Origin: Bacteroidales bacterium
GTDB taxonomy: Bacteria > Bacteroidota > Bacteroidia > Bacteroidales > UBA932
Assembly: GCA_017509755.1 (NCBI GenBank)
Contig: JAFWOY010000001.1
Coordinates: 1 to 64,000 of the forward strand
Length of the DNA: 64,000 bases
Direction: 5' to 3'
Numbering within the stretch: the first letter of the stretch is position 1; the number at the start of each line of letters is the position of its first letter. This document shows, one piece after another, positions 1,020-8,969 of the stretch. Both the position numbers and the translations under genes were made by a program. The notes below the pieces were generated by a model. The model worked only from the letters and a program-made list of their open reading frames with translations, was not told the origin of the DNA and searched no databases.

Positions 1020-1345
1020 ATGATACTACCCGAGATCACACTCCTTCCCCTGCAGCCAGAAGACCGGGAGCAGTTCATCCTGGACAACCAATGGGCGTTC
1101 AAGTACGGAGCCCAGCAGGAGTTTGTGATGAGGGACGAGCGTTGCGAGGAGGGTGAAGAGGTCATCTCTCGCAAGACCATCACCCCTTACTTCGAGAAAC
1201 GCAACATCCATTTCTACGTGAACCGTTGCGGCTTCCATATCGTCGAGTTCTGGAACAAGTATCAGCACGGCCCAGCCGTCCCCGAGGAAGAGGAGGGCAA
1301 CTGGAGCATGGACGATGAGATGTTCGTGTTCAGGAAGGCTTTCGA
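1020..1345 (+). pseudogene. GNAT-family acetyltransferase with internal deletion
   Basis: The N-terminus (MILPEITLLPLQPEDREQF) and the C-terminal motif TPYFEKRNIHFYVNRCGF match, as I recall it, a Bacteroidales GNAT family of roughly 160-180 residues. Here ISRKTI is joined directly to TPYFEKRN at about base 1182, so the middle of the fold, including the acetyl-CoA-binding motif A, is missing in frame. The reading frame stays open to 1439, but beyond about 1345 it runs antisense through the HipA remnant, so its native end is also lost. I infer a non-functional remnant. The exact breakpoints need alignment with an intact homologue. Confidence 0.6.
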
Positions 1346-1963
1346 AAGAGGTCTCTTCATGGCACCCAGAACGGCCTCATACTGCTCGTTTTTCTTTGTG
1401 AATACCCGCCGTCTTTCCTGGCCGTCGATTGTTGCGTAAAGGTGGATGTTCCCGGCATCGGTCATCTCGAACCGGATCAGATCGGAAGTGGCGATCGCCG
1501 GAGCAAAGACATCCGGAGACAATTTGCGGAGCCGTGACTCTATTATGTCGATGAAGAGAGAGGCGACACCGTTTGCTGAAGCCAGGGACCGAAAGTCTTT
1601 GAGCGCTTCTTTAACCTTGTAGATGTACTTCGCGGGATTCTTGATGTCGTTCTGGGCGGCAAAGGCCAGCAGGTCCGCGGTGGTTATATCCTCGAACTTC
1701 CCCCGTACGGAGAATTCGTGACGCTTTTCCGGGGCGGTAGCTGTCTTTAAGATAAAGCAGAGGTCATAAGCAGGAGAAAGGTGCCAGGAACCGTCCTTCT
1801 CCATGATGAAGGAGAAATTCTTGGCGTGGTCGTCCGTGTTGTTGGAAAGGATGTTGAACACCATCCGGAGGAAGAGCTCGTTCAGTTCATCCTGAGGGAT
1901 GGAGAGTTGCCTGCAGGTGGAGAACAGATCCTCGTAGCAATATGCCTCCGGATTGACATACAA
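1346..1963 (-). pseudogene. HipA-like kinase, C-terminal fragment only
   Basis: The frame on the minus strand carries the HipA catalytic-loop motif NTDDHAKNFSF and the downstream SPAYDLCF (metal-binding DxF-like) motif, then the typical C-terminal helical part ending near VFTKKNEQYEAVL. HipA proteins are Ser/Thr kinases that target glutamyl-tRNA synthetase in known toxin systems. The N-terminal half, including the nucleotide-binding lobe, is absent: the frame is closed by a stop immediately before 1963, next to an integrase tail. No HipB antitoxin is present. The open frame runs on to 1262 only by reading antisense across the GNAT remnant. This is therefore a truncated pseudogene. Confidence 0.72.
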
Positions 1964-3126: not shown

Positions 3127-3165
3127 CTGCGCGATACGATGACCTTCCGCTGATCCGTTTTAGGG

Positions 3166-3203
3166 GACGGGCAAGGTCTCGTTGGATGGCCGACACCTTG
3201 CCC
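3166..3203. repeat. First hairpin of a duplicated GGGCAAGGT element
   Basis: GGGCAAGGT (3169-3177) pairs with ACCTTGCCC (3195-3203). The same arms recur in the stronger hairpin 40 bases downstream, so two related stem-loops sit in tandem between convergent genes. Confidence 0.6.
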
Positions 3204-3241
3204 GAGTGAACCGCGTCCTGCATCACTGCACCTACGAAAGC

Positions 3242-3286
3242 ACGGGCAAGGTCCCAGTGATGAAAGGAGACCTTGCCCGTTCTTTT
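3242..3286. terminator. Hairpin terminator between convergent genes
   Basis: A 12-bp perfect stem, ACGGGCAAGGTC (3242-3253) with GACCTTGCCCGT (3269-3280), is followed by a T-rich run. It lies between the ends of the esterase gene and the PEGA-domain gene and could serve both strands. Confidence 0.7.
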
Positions 3287-3304
3287 CGGAGAGGACGATC
3301 TGTC

Positions 3305-5632
3305 TTAGAAGACGCGGAGGATGTTGTTGCCTTTGGCGTCGCGGGTACCGAGTTTGACGCCTACGGAAATGACAAACTGGGCATCGTTGTACGGAATCAC
3401 ATAGGGGGCTGAAATATACCGTTCCTGCACTGCGGACGAGTACTTGACCACATCGGCAGGCCGGCAGATGTTGGCTTGTCCATAGAACGCCATCAGACCC
3501 GCCCGGATATTGACATTGAGGATGGGGAAACGCGAGGTGATTTCGCCGCCCAGGAAGATATCATGACCCGACACGTGCGTGAACGGGATAATCTTGCTCA
3601 AATTGGGATACCAGCTGTAAGCGGCCAGCAGGTCGATGTCAGCATTGTTATGCAGGGCGCCTCCGATACGGAACTCCTCGTTGAGGAAGATCATCGTCAG
3701 TGCAGGCAGGAAGGTCACGTCCTGATAATGTTCATCGCCCGGTTCAAGACCGTATTTGCCCGCCGTATTGGCCGGATAATGGATGTGACGCTGCGGGTCC
3801 GAGGGCCAGAAGAAAGCAGCCTTGGCCGCTGAGGTTGTCATGCCCGAGAAAAGCATCAGTTCCCCAAGGGTGACCTCGCCGATACGCTGGAAACCTTTTT
3901 CAAACTGGGTATCGTGCAAGAACGGCTTGGGGCGCTTGAGATAATAGTTCACCCCGAACATGCGGAAATTCTCCCGGGAATAAGAAAGCAGATTGAGCCG
4001 GTCACGGTTTCCGCTGCGGAACCAGAAATAGCCGTCATAGGCTTTCGTCAGGTTGCGGCGTGAAAGCGTCACATGGTAGAGGGACTTGCTCACCGGCAGT
4101 TCGACGACGGCCGGCGTTTTCACATCGTCCACATAAGTCACTTTATTCAAGCCCCGGCCCTTGGTAATGGTAATCCGCAGGCTGTCCTCGTCGCAAGTGA
4201 TGGGAAGTGGCCAGGTCTTGACCATCTTGATGAGATATTCCTGCTCATCGTCAGCAGCCTCCGCCTTGAGTTCCTCCGAATAGGTGAAATAGCCCTGCTT
4301 CTCATATTGCATCTGGTGCAGGCCTTCGACCAGTTGGACCTTCAACGGGGTCGTACCAGCCAGTTCTCCGTCGATATACAGTTTGCAATACGCCGGATCC
4401 GACGTGAAGGAATAGGTCGTGAACCGGTTCATCGATATGTTGAGCAGGAATTCCTTCCCTTCCTCGATGTCGAATTCATAAAGGGGATGTTCGGACAGGA
4501 AGCCCGGTTTCTCGACCCGCAGCGTGTGATGTCCTGTCTTGATCTTGCCGTTGAACGGAAGCTGCCCGACTTCTTTCTCGTCGATGAAGACCCGTGCATC
4601 CACCGCGTTCTCCGCATCCTGCACGGAAAGCATGCCATAAATGGCTGCAAGGGTGAAATCGATGTGCACTGTCTTGCCTTTTTCGAGAATCACGTTCTTG
4701 ATATCCACTTTGAATCCGTCGGACTCGGCCCGAAGCACATACTGGCCCGGATGCAGCGGAATCACATTGCCCTCATACAGGCTGTAGTAACTGATCTCCT
4801 GGTCCACATTGAAACTCTTCAGGTTATTGGGGCGCATGTCAATCTGCCGGCCGCTGATGTCCAGGGTGGCATCCGCATCGAAAATCAGGCCCTCTTCCGG
4901 CTTGATATCGACCGACAGCAAGGCGAAGGAAGGCTGCAGCTGGATGCGGTGGTACAGGTCCTCCTCCCGAGGATTGCGGGGCACGAAAAGGACGGTGTCG
5001 ATATGCTCGAACCCATTCTTTTCAATCCGGACGTGGTGCGCACCTTCCTTGAGCTGGAACTGGTCGGAAAGCATGCCCGTGTTCTGGTCGACGTAGATGA
5101 TGGAACGTTCGGGTACGGTACGGATATACACTGTATATTCGGTATCCCGCCGGCCATCCTGGGAAACCAGCACGTAAGCGGTCCGCTCCTTCCCCATCGA
5201 AACCTCCACAACCCCTTTCCGGGAAGCCTCCGCTTCGTTCGGCGCGATAGTCAGGAACAGCACATCCGTGTCGATTTCCGTTTTGCACCAGGAGGGCGCC
5301 GCCGTCACTTCCCACTTCTTGCCTGCTGTCACATAAATACTGTCCCGGAACCCTTCGCCCGGTGCCAGGATCGTCTCCTTGGACAGATTCAGGTCGCCCA
5401 GTTTGGCCAGGGCTGAGCGGCACTGCCGCAGCAGCCGGTCCGCCTGCGCTTTTTGGTCGGACGTGACGCCCGGTGCCTTCTTGGCCGCCTCGAGGGTCTT
5501 GATGGCCAGATCGTATTGCTTGCCCGTGTAATACTCCACAGCTTCGCTGTAGCGCATATCGAATGATTTTTGGGCCAAAGCCTGGGATACTGTCAGCAGC
5601 AGGACCACCAACAGAAGGACGATTCTTTTCAT
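3305..5632 (-). CDS. Secreted PEGA-repeat/BACON protein, probable envelope component
   Basis: The 775-residue protein has a signal peptide (residues 1-20, ending ALAQ), a short TPR-like helical part (about 25-75; YYTGKQYDLAIKTLEAAKK), a BACON-like beta domain (about 80-160, with APSWCK) and then several PEGA-type repeats (about 165-475) marked by patterns such as VDQNTGMLSDQFQLKEGAHHVRI and IDGELAGTTPLKVQL. The last 170 residues are beta-rich and end in Phe, which might be an outer-membrane barrel or periplasmic domain. Its start overlaps the stop of the TIR gene by four bases (ATGA), so translation is probably coupled. PEGA repeats are generally envelope-surface binding modules. Its role beside a TIR protein is inferred only. 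Confidence 0.85.
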   Translation of the reverse strand: MKRIVLLLVVLLLTVSQALAQKSFDMRYSEAVEYYTGKQYDLAIKTLEAAKKAPGVTSDQKAQADRLLRQCRSALAKLGDLNLSKETILAPGEGFRDSIYVTAGKKWEVTAAPSWCKTEIDTDVLFLTIAPNEAEASRKGVVEVSMGKERTAYVLVSQDGRRDTEYTVYIRTVPERSIIYVDQNTGMLSDQFQLKEGAHHVRIEKNGFEHIDTVLFVPRNPREEDLYHRIQLQPSFALLSVDIKPEEGLIFDADATLDISGRQIDMRPNNLKSFNVDQEISYYSLYEGNVIPLHPGQYVLRAESDGFKVDIKNVILEKGKTVHIDFTLAAIYGMLSVQDAENAVDARVFIDEKEVGQLPFNGKIKTGHHTLRVEKPGFLSEHPLYEFDIEEGKEFLLNISMNRFTTYSFTSDPAYCKLYIDGELAGTTPLKVQLVEGLHQMQYEKQGYFTYSEELKAEAADDEQEYLIKMVKTWPLPITCDEDSLRITITKGRGLNKVTYVDDVKTPAVVELPVSKSLYHVTLSRRNLTKAYDGYFWFRSGNRDRLNLLSYSRENFRMFGVNYYLKRPKPFLHDTQFEKGFQRIGEVTLGELMLFSGMTTSAAKAAFFWPSDPQRHIHYPANTAGKYGLEPGDEHYQDVTFLPALTMIFLNEEFRIGGALHNNADIDLLAAYSWYPNLSKIIPFTHVSGHDIFLGGEITSRFPILNVNIRAGLMAFYGQANICRPADVVKYSSAVQERYISAPYVIPYNDAQFVISVGVKLGTRDAKGNNILRVF

Positions 5633-6600
5633 AAGGAAAGTTGCTTTTTGATGTTTTCTAATTCAGGATCGGGGCGGATGGAGAGGACATAACCGATGCA
5701 GGAAAGTACGTTCTCCCGTTCCGAATCACGATGGGATATCCGGTATAAGGCATAGGATTCCTTGGCATAATCAGCCCAGGAAGCGGCCATGGAGTCGAGT
5801 TTGGCCTGCACACGTGCCGAACGGCTCTCCATTTCCTTGCCGAAAAGCCCCTTGAAAGGCGTATCTTCAAACTGATGCCGGACCGAAACCGCACTGTCCA
5901 GCAGTTGGCCGGCTTGTTGCAGGCTGGCAATCTGTTCACCCGTACTTTCCAGCGAACGCGAAGAGTCTTTCAACGCATCCGCCTGCTGGATCAACGCATC
6001 GGACTGTCCGATCAGATCTTCATACAAGCGCGAGGCAGACAGCGCCTCCTTGTTGTCCTGCCGGTCGCGGCCGCTCATCAAGGCAAAAACCACGGCTCCT
6101 GCTACCAACAGCGCCAGCAGGGAAACGAGACTCCAGACCAACACTTTTTTCTTACGGGATGACAGGACCTGTCGTCCGCCGATAGTCCCTTCCTCCGGAT
6201 GGGCAATGGCTTTGCGGATATCATCGATCAGGCCGGTCTGGATGGGGCATAGTTCCTTGCGGCGCCAGTTGAAATTGCCCAGCATGAGTTCCAGGTCTGG
6301 CGGCATGGATTCACTGCCATCGATGATATAGGGAATGATGGCGCCGCTGTGCTTATGGTTGAAGGCGTAGGTCACCTCGCCGCGAGTAAATCGGGACTGG
6401 AACGAGTGCTGGCTGGCCAGAAACAGGAAAATCGTGGAAGATTCCACGGCTTCGGCGAGGACTTGCGGAAAGTTCTGCCCCGCTTCGATACCCTCCTTGT
6501 CGATGAAGAAAGTAAGCCCCGCCGCCGAGAGCGCCGTACAGATTTCGTCAGCTATTTTCGCATCCTTGCGCGAATAACTGATAAAAACGTCGTAAGCCAT
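5629..6600 (-). CDS. TIR-domain protein with transmembrane segment and periplasmic tail
   Basis: The start chosen is the ATG at 6600, giving 323 residues beginning MAYDVFISYSRKD, the box-1 motif of TIR domains; an upstream extension of the frame would cross the promoter and the divergent gene. The TIR domain spans residues 1 to about 130. Glu75 in SRFTRGEV occupies the position of the catalytic Glu of TIR NADases, though many bacterial TIR_2 domains are only adaptors. A transmembrane helix at about 153-175 follows a basic stretch, and residues 180-323 form a largely helical, probably coiled-coil extracytoplasmic part. It is co-transcribed with the PEGA gene and lies divergent from the RyR gene. 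Confidence 0.88.
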   Translation of the reverse strand: MAYDVFISYSRKDAKIADEICTALSAAGLTFFIDKEGIEAGQNFPQVLAEAVESSTIFLFLASQHSFQSRFTRGEVTYAFNHKHSGAIIPYIIDGSESMPPDLELMLGNFNWRRKELCPIQTGLIDDIRKAIAHPEEGTIGGRQVLSSRKKKVLVWSLVSLLALLVAGAVVFALMSGRDRQDNKEALSASRLYEDLIGQSDALIQQADALKDSSRSLESTGEQIASLQQAGQLLDSAVSVRHQFEDTPFKGLFGKEMESRSARVQAKLDSMAASWADYAKESYALYRISHRDSERENVLSCIGYVLSIRPDPELENIKKQLSL

Positions 6601-6623
6601 TTTTCTGGTTGATACTGAAATAA

Positions 6624-6655
6624 TTTGTAAAAGTACCAAATTTATTTCACTTTTG
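6624..6655 (+). promoter_or_regulatory. Promoter of the small RyR gene, possibly leaderless
   Basis: TTTG at 6624-6627 and CACTTTTG at 6648-6655 are 20 bases apart, close to the Bacteroidota -33/-7 layout with one -7 mismatch. The ATG is nine bases after the box, so little or no 5' leader is expected. Confidence 0.45.
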
Positions 6656-6663
6656 CCATACAA
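6637..6663 (-). promoter_or_regulatory. Promoter of the TIR-PEGA operon
   Basis: On the minus strand TAAATTTG (6637-6644) matches the -7 box, with a TTG (6661-6663) upstream at somewhat short spacing. The start codon is 36 bases downstream. It interleaves with the opposite-strand promoter of the RyR gene. Confidence 0.5.
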
Positions 6664-6664
6664 T

Positions 6665-7009
6665 ATGGAAAAGAAGAACAACCCTGCCGGCCAGGCTGCT
6701 GCAACGTACCAGCCCGCGCCCATCGATACAGCGGGGGTCGTGCTCCCGGAGTCCCTTTTGGCGCTGACGGAAACCCTCGCCCGCAATACCCATGAAGTCT
6801 GGGCCCGCCAACGCATGGACGAAGGCTGGCGCTACGGACCGAGCCGCGACGATGTACGGAAACTGCACCCCAACCTGGTGCCTTACGAATACCTTTCTGA
6901 AGAAGACAAGGAATATGACAGGCTGACGGCACTGAACGCCATCCGCCTGATGGTCCTTTCGGGCTTTACGGTCACGGCTCCTGATGAAGCAGCTGCAAAG
7001 TTGTTTTGA
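6665..7009 (+). CDS. Small RyR-domain protein
   Basis: The 114-residue protein is essentially one RyR (ryanodine receptor repeat) domain after a short Ala/Pro-rich lead. The diagnostic segments are NTHEVWARQRMDEGW (41-55), YGPSRDD (57-63) and LVPYEYLSEEDKEYDR (71-86). Bacterial RyR domains are thought to bind small ligands, possibly nucleotides, but the ligand is not established. The start at 6665 is favoured over an in-frame ATG at 6653, which lies inside the promoter. The gene is divergent from the TIR gene with overlapping promoters, and its last 38 bases overlap the end of the convergent membrane RyR gene. Confidence 0.85.
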   Translation: MEKKNNPAGQAAATYQPAPIDTAGVVLPESLLALTETLARNTHEVWARQRMDEGWRYGPSRDDVRKLHPNLVPYEYLSEEDKEYDRLTALNAIRLMVLSGFTVTAPDEAAAKLF

Positions 7010-8969
7010 CCACGATCCAGTCGTAGTGCCGCGTCTGCTCCGGCAGATTCCAGTAATCCTGCAGGGCGGGATGGATCTTCAGATCTTCCCGTTTCCTGTC
7101 CCCACAACGATAACCGGCTATTTCGTGCGCCGCCTGCCAGCGCAAGTGCTCGCCAATAGCCAGATACTCTAGCACGGGAGCTGCCTTTCTGTCCGTACAA
7201 TGCTGTCCATCATACTCGACAGGAATGGCGTCTGACACAGCAGAATCCTGATACAACCGGACCGGGCAAAGCATTTTCTTGACCTCCATGTGCATATAAT
7301 CGGAGTAATCCTGGCCGACCTTGCGCCGGTACTCTTTCTTTTTCCAAAGCGGCGTGGTATCGGCCTGCTCAATCTTGCGGATCCTGTCCTCCCAGGCGAC
7401 AGGTTCGCCAGACGCACGACAATAGGCATCGTAGAAGGCACGGGCGTACTGCTCAAACGTCTCGTCAATGATATTCCATTCTGTCCAGGCGTCCAGGCCA
7501 CCCAGGATCCGGATGCAGTCCACGCCCAGGTTCTGCATATAGAAATTAATGAGTTTCTTGTATTTCTCCGGTTCATCCAGTTTGACCACAATGGCAGGTA
7601 GCCGCTGGATCGCCTGATGGCAGAACAACTCGAGCATATCCAACGCCAGGCGGACATTCTTCTGGTCTTCGCCCAGGGCGATGGCCACGTAATTGAGTGA
7701 GCCGAGCTGCTCCTGGAAATAACGCCAGAATGCCTTGGAGCCGACCTCCATGGGCAGGAAGCGGACCTTTTCATCGGAAATGGCAGGATGCTCCATCCGG
7801 AAAGTTCCTTCCAGGGCGGCGGCGGAACGGTCCACTACATCGCAGCAGAAAGGCAATGGCTTCTTGTCTTCCCCTACGAAGGCGCCGAACTCGTAAAGAT
7901 ACGAAAGCATACCCTGGCCGGTTTCCCCGAAACCCAGGACCATGGAATGGAATCCGGACCGTACCCAGCCCAGGGGCTGGCCCGCGTCATCGCAGGCCGT
8001 ATCCACGAAACGGACCGGCATCAGGGCCGCATCCATCTTCATCTGCTTGACCGTCAGGAAAGACTCATCGACCAAGCGGATGTCATGCGTAGACAGTTGC
8101 ACGATGCTGTCATTGACGCCACTGCGGCTGGCCCGGCAAAAAACCTTGCAGCGGCAAGGCGGCAACTTGTGCACCGCCGAGAGATTGTCGTCTTCATCCT
8201 CGGAAAGGAAATACAACGCGTCACTTTCCGAGACCGTCCACTTGGCCAGCTGTGTAAGGCCAAGTTCCTTGAAGAGATGATCGCCTGTACATTCTTTGAT
8301 AGACTGCCGGGCGGTCAGGATGATGGCGCCCGGGACAAGTGTCCGGATGCGCTCCAGACGGACGGTATCCGGGCGGATTCCCCGAAGGATCTGGAGGAAG
8401 GACACTTTGCCCGGAAGCGTTTCCCGCGACGGAGAGAGCACGAAAAGGAGCTGGTTGTCAGGGTTCTTCGCGAGATCTGCCGCCAATAGCAGGGAACGGC
8501 GTTCATCGCCGAAGAAAAGGTGGCGCCGCTTCCCCGAAGGACGATGGAACCAGAGCCAGAGCCGGCTTGAAAAGCGACGGGCAAAGAGATGCACCGTCAG
8601 GATGGTGGTTGTCCAGCTTGCGCAGGCCAGCAATCCTTCCAGCAGGATCAGGTTCACTTGCACGGCTTCCGCCGAACCCGACATGGCGTCGGACACATAG
8701 AAGTAATTGAAAAGGCGGCCGTACGTGGAAATCGCATTGAACAGAAAGAGATTGAGCGAACCTACGATGGAAAGGATGGTCCGCGAGAACCAGTTGGGAA
8801 CGCCCGAAGCAAGGTACGCTTGCCAGTAAAGCACAAACCCGCCAATGGCAATCAACGCGGCCGGAATCCAGAGCAGGGCGGGTTTACGGCGGAGCAGACG
8901 GAGCGTTCCGATCAAGTATAGAACTACGAAACCCGCCATCAAACAGGCGATCAGGGCTAGATTATCCAT
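6972..8969 (-). CDS. Four-TM membrane protein with Rossmann-like domains and C-terminal RyR-like domain
   Basis: The 665-residue protein has four predicted transmembrane helices (about 3-26, 32-53, 62-82, 106-130), then a cytoplasmic part. A first Rossmann-like segment starts near HLFFGDERRS (150-159). A second carries the nucleotide-binding glycine motif GFGETGQG (346-353), like TrkA/RCK domains that bind NAD(H) or nucleotides and gate ion channels. The C-terminus (about 603-661; IGEHLRWQAAHEI, then LPEQTRHYDW) resembles a RyR domain like that of the adjacent small protein. No pore signature is obvious. It starts 15 bases after the PatB-type gene and probably rides on that operon, while its end overlaps the small RyR gene. 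Confidence 0.8.
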   Translation of the reverse strand: MDNLALIACLMAGFVVLYLIGTLRLLRRKPALLWIPAALIAIGGFVLYWQAYLASGVPNWFSRTILSIVGSLNLFLFNAISTYGRLFNYFYVSDAMSGSAEAVQVNLILLEGLLACASWTTTILTVHLFARRFSSRLWLWFHRPSGKRRHLFFGDERRSLLLAADLAKNPDNQLLFVLSPSRETLPGKVSFLQILRGIRPDTVRLERIRTLVPGAIILTARQSIKECTGDHLFKELGLTQLAKWTVSESDALYFLSEDEDDNLSAVHKLPPCRCKVFCRASRSGVNDSIVQLSTHDIRLVDESFLTVKQMKMDAALMPVRFVDTACDDAGQPLGWVRSGFHSMVLGFGETGQGMLSYLYEFGAFVGEDKKPLPFCCDVVDRSAAALEGTFRMEHPAISDEKVRFLPMEVGSKAFWRYFQEQLGSLNYVAIALGEDQKNVRLALDMLELFCHQAIQRLPAIVVKLDEPEKYKKLINFYMQNLGVDCIRILGGLDAWTEWNIIDETFEQYARAFYDAYCRASGEPVAWEDRIRKIEQADTTPLWKKKEYRRKVGQDYSDYMHMEVKKMLCPVRLYQDSAVSDAIPVEYDGQHCTDRKAAPVLEYLAIGEHLRWQAAHEIAGYRCGDRKREDLKIHPALQDYWNLPEQTRHYDWIVVKTTLQLLHQEP

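Follow-up and report, generated by a model that had tools for sequence, protein, structure and literature searches.

A cluster of four genes in a draft genome of 2.54 Mb probably, though by no means certainly, constitutes a TIR-based second-messenger module, in which a membrane protein with tandem RCK domains and a C-terminal ryanodine receptor (RyR) domain would be the gated effector. What the computation shows is the genes themselves, their domains and folds, the conservation of the pocket residues and a linkage that recurs. The window, i.e., the whole stretch of DNA that was analyzed, comprises positions 1-64000 of one contig, and the cluster occupies positions 3305-8969 (Table 1). The original prediction had placed three genes at 5629-8969, encoding a TIR-transmembrane (TIR-TM) protein, a stand-alone RyR domain and a membrane protein with Rossmann and RyR-like domains. 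Pfam searches, a TM scan and structural models confirmed that all three are real, they lie contiguously, and a fourth gene, encoding a secreted PEGA/BACON protein, had been missed.

Table 1. Features of the TIR/RyR gene cluster in the window
Feature	Positions	Strand	Evidence
Secreted PEGA/BACON protein, 775 aa	3305..5632	-	Pfam PEGA 6e-26, BACON 0.001; signal peptide, PEGA repeats, C-terminal Phe
TIR-TM protein, 323 aa	5629..6600	-	Pfam TIR_2 E=4e-21; TM scan; conserved Glu column
Divergent TIR-RyR intergenic region, 64 bp	6601..6664	.	Sequence; one TAnnTTTG box
Stand-alone RyR-domain protein, 114 aa	6665..7009	+	PF02026 E=4.6e-32, 110.6 bits; 3nrt 5e-31
Channel-like effector candidate, 665 aa	6972..8969	-	AF2 pLDDT 85.9; RCK structural matches
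Repeat12-like RyR domain at the C-terminus of the 665-aa protein	6975..7472	-	AF2 pLDDT 95.1; best 28 structural matches RyR; invariant residues

In the mechanism that we propose, the membrane-anchored TIR protein and its secreted PEGA/BACON partner would act as sensor and enzyme, responding to a stimulus at the envelope. The TIR domain, through a putative NADase or cyclase activity, would turn NAD+ into a signal of the ADP-ribose type, most probably an isomer of cyclic ADP-ribose (cADPR), and the RyR (Repeat12) domain that the 665-aa membrane protein carries would bind it. The tandem RCK ring of this protein would then change the state of the membrane domain, by ion flux or depolarization, and the cell would be arrested or its physiology altered. 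The stand-alone RyR protein may bind or degrade the same signal, setting the threshold or switching the response off, or it may be a second sensor. In a more specific version, the Repeat12 domain would be part of an RCK-gated channel that opens once this domain has bound a cADPR isomer produced by the TIR. This version would define bacterial TIR-signaled RyR-domain ion channels; it is put forward tentatively, as slightly more probably wrong than right.

The ATG of the PEGA/BACON gene lies inside the TIR stop codon (ATGA overlap, 5629-5632). The stand-alone RyR gene is antisense, between the TIR and channel-like genes; it diverges from the TIR gene across the 64-bp gap, and its 3' end overlaps that of the 665-aa protein gene by 38 bp. 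The window genes are in mixed orientation and do not form one operon. A listed TIR open reading frame of 395 aa (to 6816) is too long and over-runs the divergent RyR gene; the true start (MAYDVF) is the ATG at 6600. The TAnnTTTG box TAAATTTG (6637-6644, minus strand) faces the TIR gene, but matches to this pattern in a stretch of 3.3 kb did not exceed chance. A promoter and terminator scan gave 7 promoter-like sites against 3.3 in shuffles and 9 terminator-like sites against 6.5, none of clear meaning. The base composition of the cluster was typical of the window, with no sign of recent transfer found, and the genes to its right look housekeeping, so the cluster bears no defense-island signature. 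Elsewhere in the window, an open reading frame at 1262-1963 (minus strand) encodes a HipA domain of which just the C-terminal part is present, and is possibly a truncated HipA toxin-kinase gene.

The 665-aa protein comprises a membrane domain (residues 2-141), tandem RCK domains (~148-505) and the RyR Repeat12-like domain (500-665). When the full-length protein was modeled with AlphaFold2 from 19 aligned sequences, the best structural matches were RCK gating rings (GsuK, Z 16.9; MtDMI1, 15.9; LjCASTOR, 15.5; TrkA, 15.4), which bears out the earlier description of its Rossmann domains as TrkA/RCK-like and identifies them as a predicted tandem RCK gating ring. Relatives match TrkA_N and RyR in Pfam (1.5e-20 and 7.4e-14 in L036; 3.7e-8 and 0.0014 in L092), and a Slo-like RCK match also occurs among the relatives. 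The membrane domain had been described as four-TM; the window model instead contains three long membrane helices and two short ones at 60-91, partly at low confidence, and four hydrophobic peaks were found by TM scan in the channel-like protein of a related locus, L073. The candidate pore region (residues 79-97) was modeled at pLDDT <50. No selectivity filter was recognizable in the membrane domain of the window protein or in its branch. One sister branch has HFVDPGNQ, with the pore-like motif DPGNQ, before the last membrane helix, and this resembles the CASTOR filter (AD265S/AGNHA), the Asp of which is required for conduction (PMC6697748). Because the filter is unrecognizable and the pore region poorly modeled, we infer, rather than identify, a channel in the window protein. 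In locus L056 (6887-9389), an MscS-type gene (Pfam) lies beside a shortened RCK-RyR gene without membrane helices, followed by a stand-alone RyR gene and secreted TPR proteins; L065 (6803-9373) has the same layout and similar sequence, the Pfam scan having covered L056 only. In both, the pore has apparently been replaced by the MscS-type gene.

At the sequence level, the Pfam RyR match of the C-terminus (residues 595-662) was weak, with 23.3 bits (E=7.9e-5) in hmmscan against a cut-off of 27.4, and borderline in the genome search (27.2-27.5 bits). Residues 500-665, the C-terminal 166, were modeled alone, from an alignment with the corresponding ends of channel-like relatives. The best 28 structural matches of this model were all RyR domains, and the next match, which is unrelated, had a Z of 3.5. 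The RyR matches included 3nrt (Z 9.0, rmsd 4.6 over 83 residues) and human RyR3 Repeat12 (Z 8.4, rmsd 3.6 over 126 residues); Foldseek also ranked the RyR family first, but with an E of 0.013. Structure prediction, together with conservation, firmly establishes that the C-terminus is RyR-like. A model in which this end did not resemble RyR would have counted against the original prediction, and the model speaks in its favor on this point. As modeled, it probably consists of a degenerate first repeat and an intact repeat.

The TIR-TM protein contains an N-terminal TIR domain, one strong TM segment (~residues 153-171) and a C-terminal domain of ~130 aa predicted to lie outside the cytoplasm. Glu75 (codon 6376-6378), to which the original prediction had drawn attention, is present, and its column is kept in 28 of the 29 TIRs that span this position at loci with an RyR gene. 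For the window TIR, Pfam listed no ThsB_TIR match at E<=0.1; the TIRs of L051 and L073 scored above the cut-off for this family. The TIR architectures at RyR loci vary (TIR-TM, Sel1-TIR, SIR2-TIR and TIR at the C-terminus), suggesting that TIR and RyR have been paired repeatedly. The PEGA/BACON protein probably partners the TIR protein on the envelope side, and its orthologue in L073 (E=3e-52) sits between the TIR and channel-like genes. In L022 (5086-6171), the TIR position is occupied by a protein that starts RIFLASSAELD and has a TM segment and a CarboxypepD-like domain; its resemblance to the TIR-like NADases of DUF4062 was judged solely by eye, and Pfam gave no match to that family.

Neighboring genes bear on the biological role that the module may have. 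Secreted PEGA, TPR/CarboxypepD or outer-membrane-type neighbors recur at RyR loci, and small sigma-factor-like genes, assigned by eye, precede the RyR genes at C29, L026, L053 and L060. The secreted partners, the sigma-factor-like genes and the ordinary genomic setting, base composition included, favor envelope-stress or housekeeping signaling, in which secreted PEGA/TPR proteins would sense the envelope, the TIR would signal inward and the RyR-RCK protein would adjust ion or osmotic balance; the MscS-type pore gene in L056, with the same layout in L065, also speaks for this. Against such a role stand the patchy distribution of RyR, which was found in 37 of 393 genomes, the defense-type neighbors at several loci (nSTAND1, SLATT and SIR2-TIR), and the nearest biochemistry, which is that of phage anti-defense (PMC13232231). 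We regard the envelope-stress alternative as credible, if less probable than not being the case. The defense-type neighbors and the patchy distribution favor anti-phage defense, which is a plausible role for the module.

The stand-alone RyR protein may be a sponge, an enzyme, a second sensor or a partner subunit. Among loci ascertained through the channel-like protein, a separate RyR gene accompanied none of 6 channel-like proteins with two full repeats and 11 of 15 with a single repeat (Fisher P=0.004), in a small sample without phylogenetic correction; the 11 include RyR proteins of greater length as well as one truncated where its contig stops. This distribution suggests that the two RyR proteins are functionally tied. 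It also fits a role of the stand-alone protein as a partner subunit, pairing with the channel RyR domain to make up a Repeat12-like dimer, rather than as a sponge, an enzyme or a separate sensor, as does the N-terminal RyR fusion carried by one relative (L076). However, the isolated 500-665 model aligns over ~130 residues of human Repeat12, and the degenerate first repeat that it suggests in the channel C-terminus weakens a simple heterodimer model; the stand-alone domain of Bacteroides thetaiotaomicron is described as a dimer in PDB titles, and the sample is small and phylogenetically uncorrected. The partner-subunit reading is somewhat unlikely.

Phage RyR-domain proteins recognize Thoeris signals, and they bind or cleave TIR-made 2'/3'cADPR, with nanomolar affinity (PMC13232231, preprint of May 2026). 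One of them, RyDEP of phage DyoEdafos, binds cADPR via H75, W78, H100 and D117 (PMC13232231). The putative ligand residues are H43, W46, H68 and D85 in the stand-alone RyR protein and H608, W611, H633 and D650 in the 665-aa protein, and the H/W/H/D spacing (3/25/42) is identical in all three proteins. The residues of the RyDEP catalytic dyad, H and D, are present in the window RyR domains. This mapping relies on published residue numbers and spacing; in the phage collection, DyoEdafos was not among the 40 matches listed of the 144 phage records with RyR domains. An alignment of the channel-like family (13 members, 27% mean identity) has only 11 invariant columns, and H/W/H/D make up four of them (hypergeometric P 4e-8); in wider sets the W never varies, and conservation is at least 89% for each of H, H and D. 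Tested homologues other than DyoEdafos RyDEP showed no cleavage despite high conservation, and most bound the signals (PMC13232231), so sequence cannot tell binding from hydrolysis.

The same pocket bears on whether a dedicated cyclic messenger is involved. The TIR might just consume NAD+, with the RCK ring and the RyR domain reading NAD, ADP or ATP as a sensor of NAD status; the top structural match, GsuK, was solved with NAD and ADP, and structure titles list AMP-PCP, ADP and ATP with human RyR3 Repeat12. The nanomolar binding of 2'/3'cADPR by phage RyR proteins through pocket residues conserved here (PMC13232231), and the concentration of invariant residues of the channel-like family in the RyR pocket, make NAD-status sensing improbable. 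Among the 144 phage records carrying RyR domains, the human-gut phage contigs MT836850.1 and MT837259.1 are 46-51% identical to the window RyR; their RyR genes are possibly a counter-defense against such a module.

Linkage was assessed by searching 393 genomes of the order for PF02026, and those with an RyR match for TIR_2. Of 42 independent RyR loci, 20 had a TIR gene no more than 5 kb away, where TIR density predicts 0.29, a ~70-fold enrichment that treats loci as independent and is inflated by shared ancestry. At about half of the RyR loci, no TIR could be recognized within 10 kb. A separate search for the channel-like family, made without reference to RyR or TIR, guarded against ascertainment bias; 21 genomes had strong matches, and 8 of these had a TIR within 5 kb (0.17 expected), a count that likewise treats loci as independent and is inflated in the same way. 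Loci L069-L148 came from a wider contig scan with an RyR alignment, which is biased to stand-alone RyR, and were left out of the co-occurrence statistics.

The related loci showed varied gene orders. In L073, a contig of a Bacteroidales metagenome-assembled genome, four genes run in the same direction with overlaps or short gaps, encoding RyR (with a zinc-ribbon-like tail), TIR-TM, PEGA/BACON and channel-like proteins; their identities to the window proteins, all significant, are 56-63%, 24%, 26-29% and 43-44%, respectively. TIR, RyR and channel-like genes form operons or contiguous sets in varied orders at L027, L050, L051 and L066, and in Neobacillus niacini and Cytobacillus gottheilii the TIR gene diverges from an RyR-channel pair (-TIR/+RyR/+channel). 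The source genome has a second RyR and TIR locus (C29:21300-23900; L033, 7364-9886), with a sigma-factor-like gene, a 346-aa RyR protein with a zinc ribbon and a TIR-TM protein, and no channel-like gene adjoins it. The closest channel-like relative (54% identity) is in L070, where the RyR gene is convergent as in the window and a protein kinase-AAA fusion (3136-4881) replaces the TIR. With this kinase-AAA gene in the TIR position, TIR is a frequent but not obligatory partner of RyR and channel-like genes.

TIR and RyR genes co-occur far more often than by chance, with TIR linkage at about half of the RyR loci; RyR genes regularly lacking a TIR nearby had been named as evidence against the original prediction, and the other half of the loci bear this out in part. 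The predicted sensing of a TIR-made nucleotide by RyR/RCK proteins is strongly supported, on independent grounds, by the linkage, the recurrent operons, the RyR fold and the pocket residues, and it is weakened by L070 and by the RyR loci that have no TIR nearby. A chance or loose neighborhood, with a TIR-PEGA operon next to an unrelated RyR/channel pair, would fit the mixed gene orientation and these TIR-less loci but is very improbable, being largely refuted by the TIR enrichment, by the L073 operon with all four proteins homologous to those of the window, by the three-gene operons elsewhere and by the other RyR-TIR locus that this genome has. Two loci have a more defense-like context: in L057 (7647-8972) the RyR gene adjoins a SIR2-TIR gene, and in L059 (9270-14908) it adjoins genes for a TIR protein and an nSTAND1 NTPase.

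Thoeris is an anti-phage system that pairs a TIR protein, ThsB, with a cADPR-activated effector. Like Thoeris, the window has a TIR enzyme candidate with the catalytic Glu (E75) beside a candidate small-molecule-responsive effector; unlike Thoeris, the TIR is anchored in the membrane and accompanied by a secreted PEGA protein, and the candidate for the effector, a membrane protein with RCK and RyR domains, is uncatalogued as a Thoeris effector. Thoeris models matched the TIR domain only, in NCBIfam far below the cut-off, and searches of PADLOC (2023), NCBIfam (June 2026) and PHROGs assigned neither the RyR protein nor the 665-aa protein to a named system or an effector model. The 665-aa protein shares with CASTOR/POLLUX/DMI1 and GsuK a membrane domain followed by a tandem RCK gating ring (Z 15-17), but differs in its C-terminal RyR domain and in that its branch has neither a recognizable K+ filter nor the CASTOR-like filter seen in a sister branch. 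Among stand-alone RyR proteins, the putative ryanodine receptor of B. thetaiotaomicron (3nrt) is the closest solved native bacterial relative of the window RyR. The phage RyDEP/PF02026 Repeat12 proteins have the same H/W/H/D pocket with identical spacing (PMC13232231), whereas the window RyR is a bacterial chromosomal gene beside a TIR gene and a fused channel-like protein. Our literature search returned no paper on a chromosomal TIR-RyR-channel system, although a study of TIR-based systems outside our comparison (Yirmiya et al. 2025) might include one. Provisionally, we consider the gene set a variant of TIR-based signaling and not a new category.

Animal ryanodine receptors carry Repeat12 on a membrane protein, and a link between them and cADPR has been proposed. 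The 665-aa membrane protein likewise has a Repeat12 domain, but it is only a fraction of their size and relies on RCK rings, and no other similarity was found. The same search found no description of a biochemical role of RyR domains outside animals before the 2026 phage study, which urges work on whether cADPR-type signals act on the Repeat12 region of animal ryanodine receptors (PMC13232231). A TIR next to an RyR domain on an RCK membrane protein makes the cADPR-RyR link directly testable with small, expressible proteins. If the proposed module is real, its effector would be a new class in TIR immunity or stress signaling, and the system would be a prokaryotic counterpart, possibly an ancestor, of the proposed animal cADPR-RyR axis. 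The suggested new output of TIR signaling is membrane ion flux, by a gene set found across Bacteroidales and in Bacillota. RyR domains also occur within proteins of ~380-790 aa on the cyanobacterial contigs L088, L096, L099, L101 and L116, two of them near large TIR proteins.
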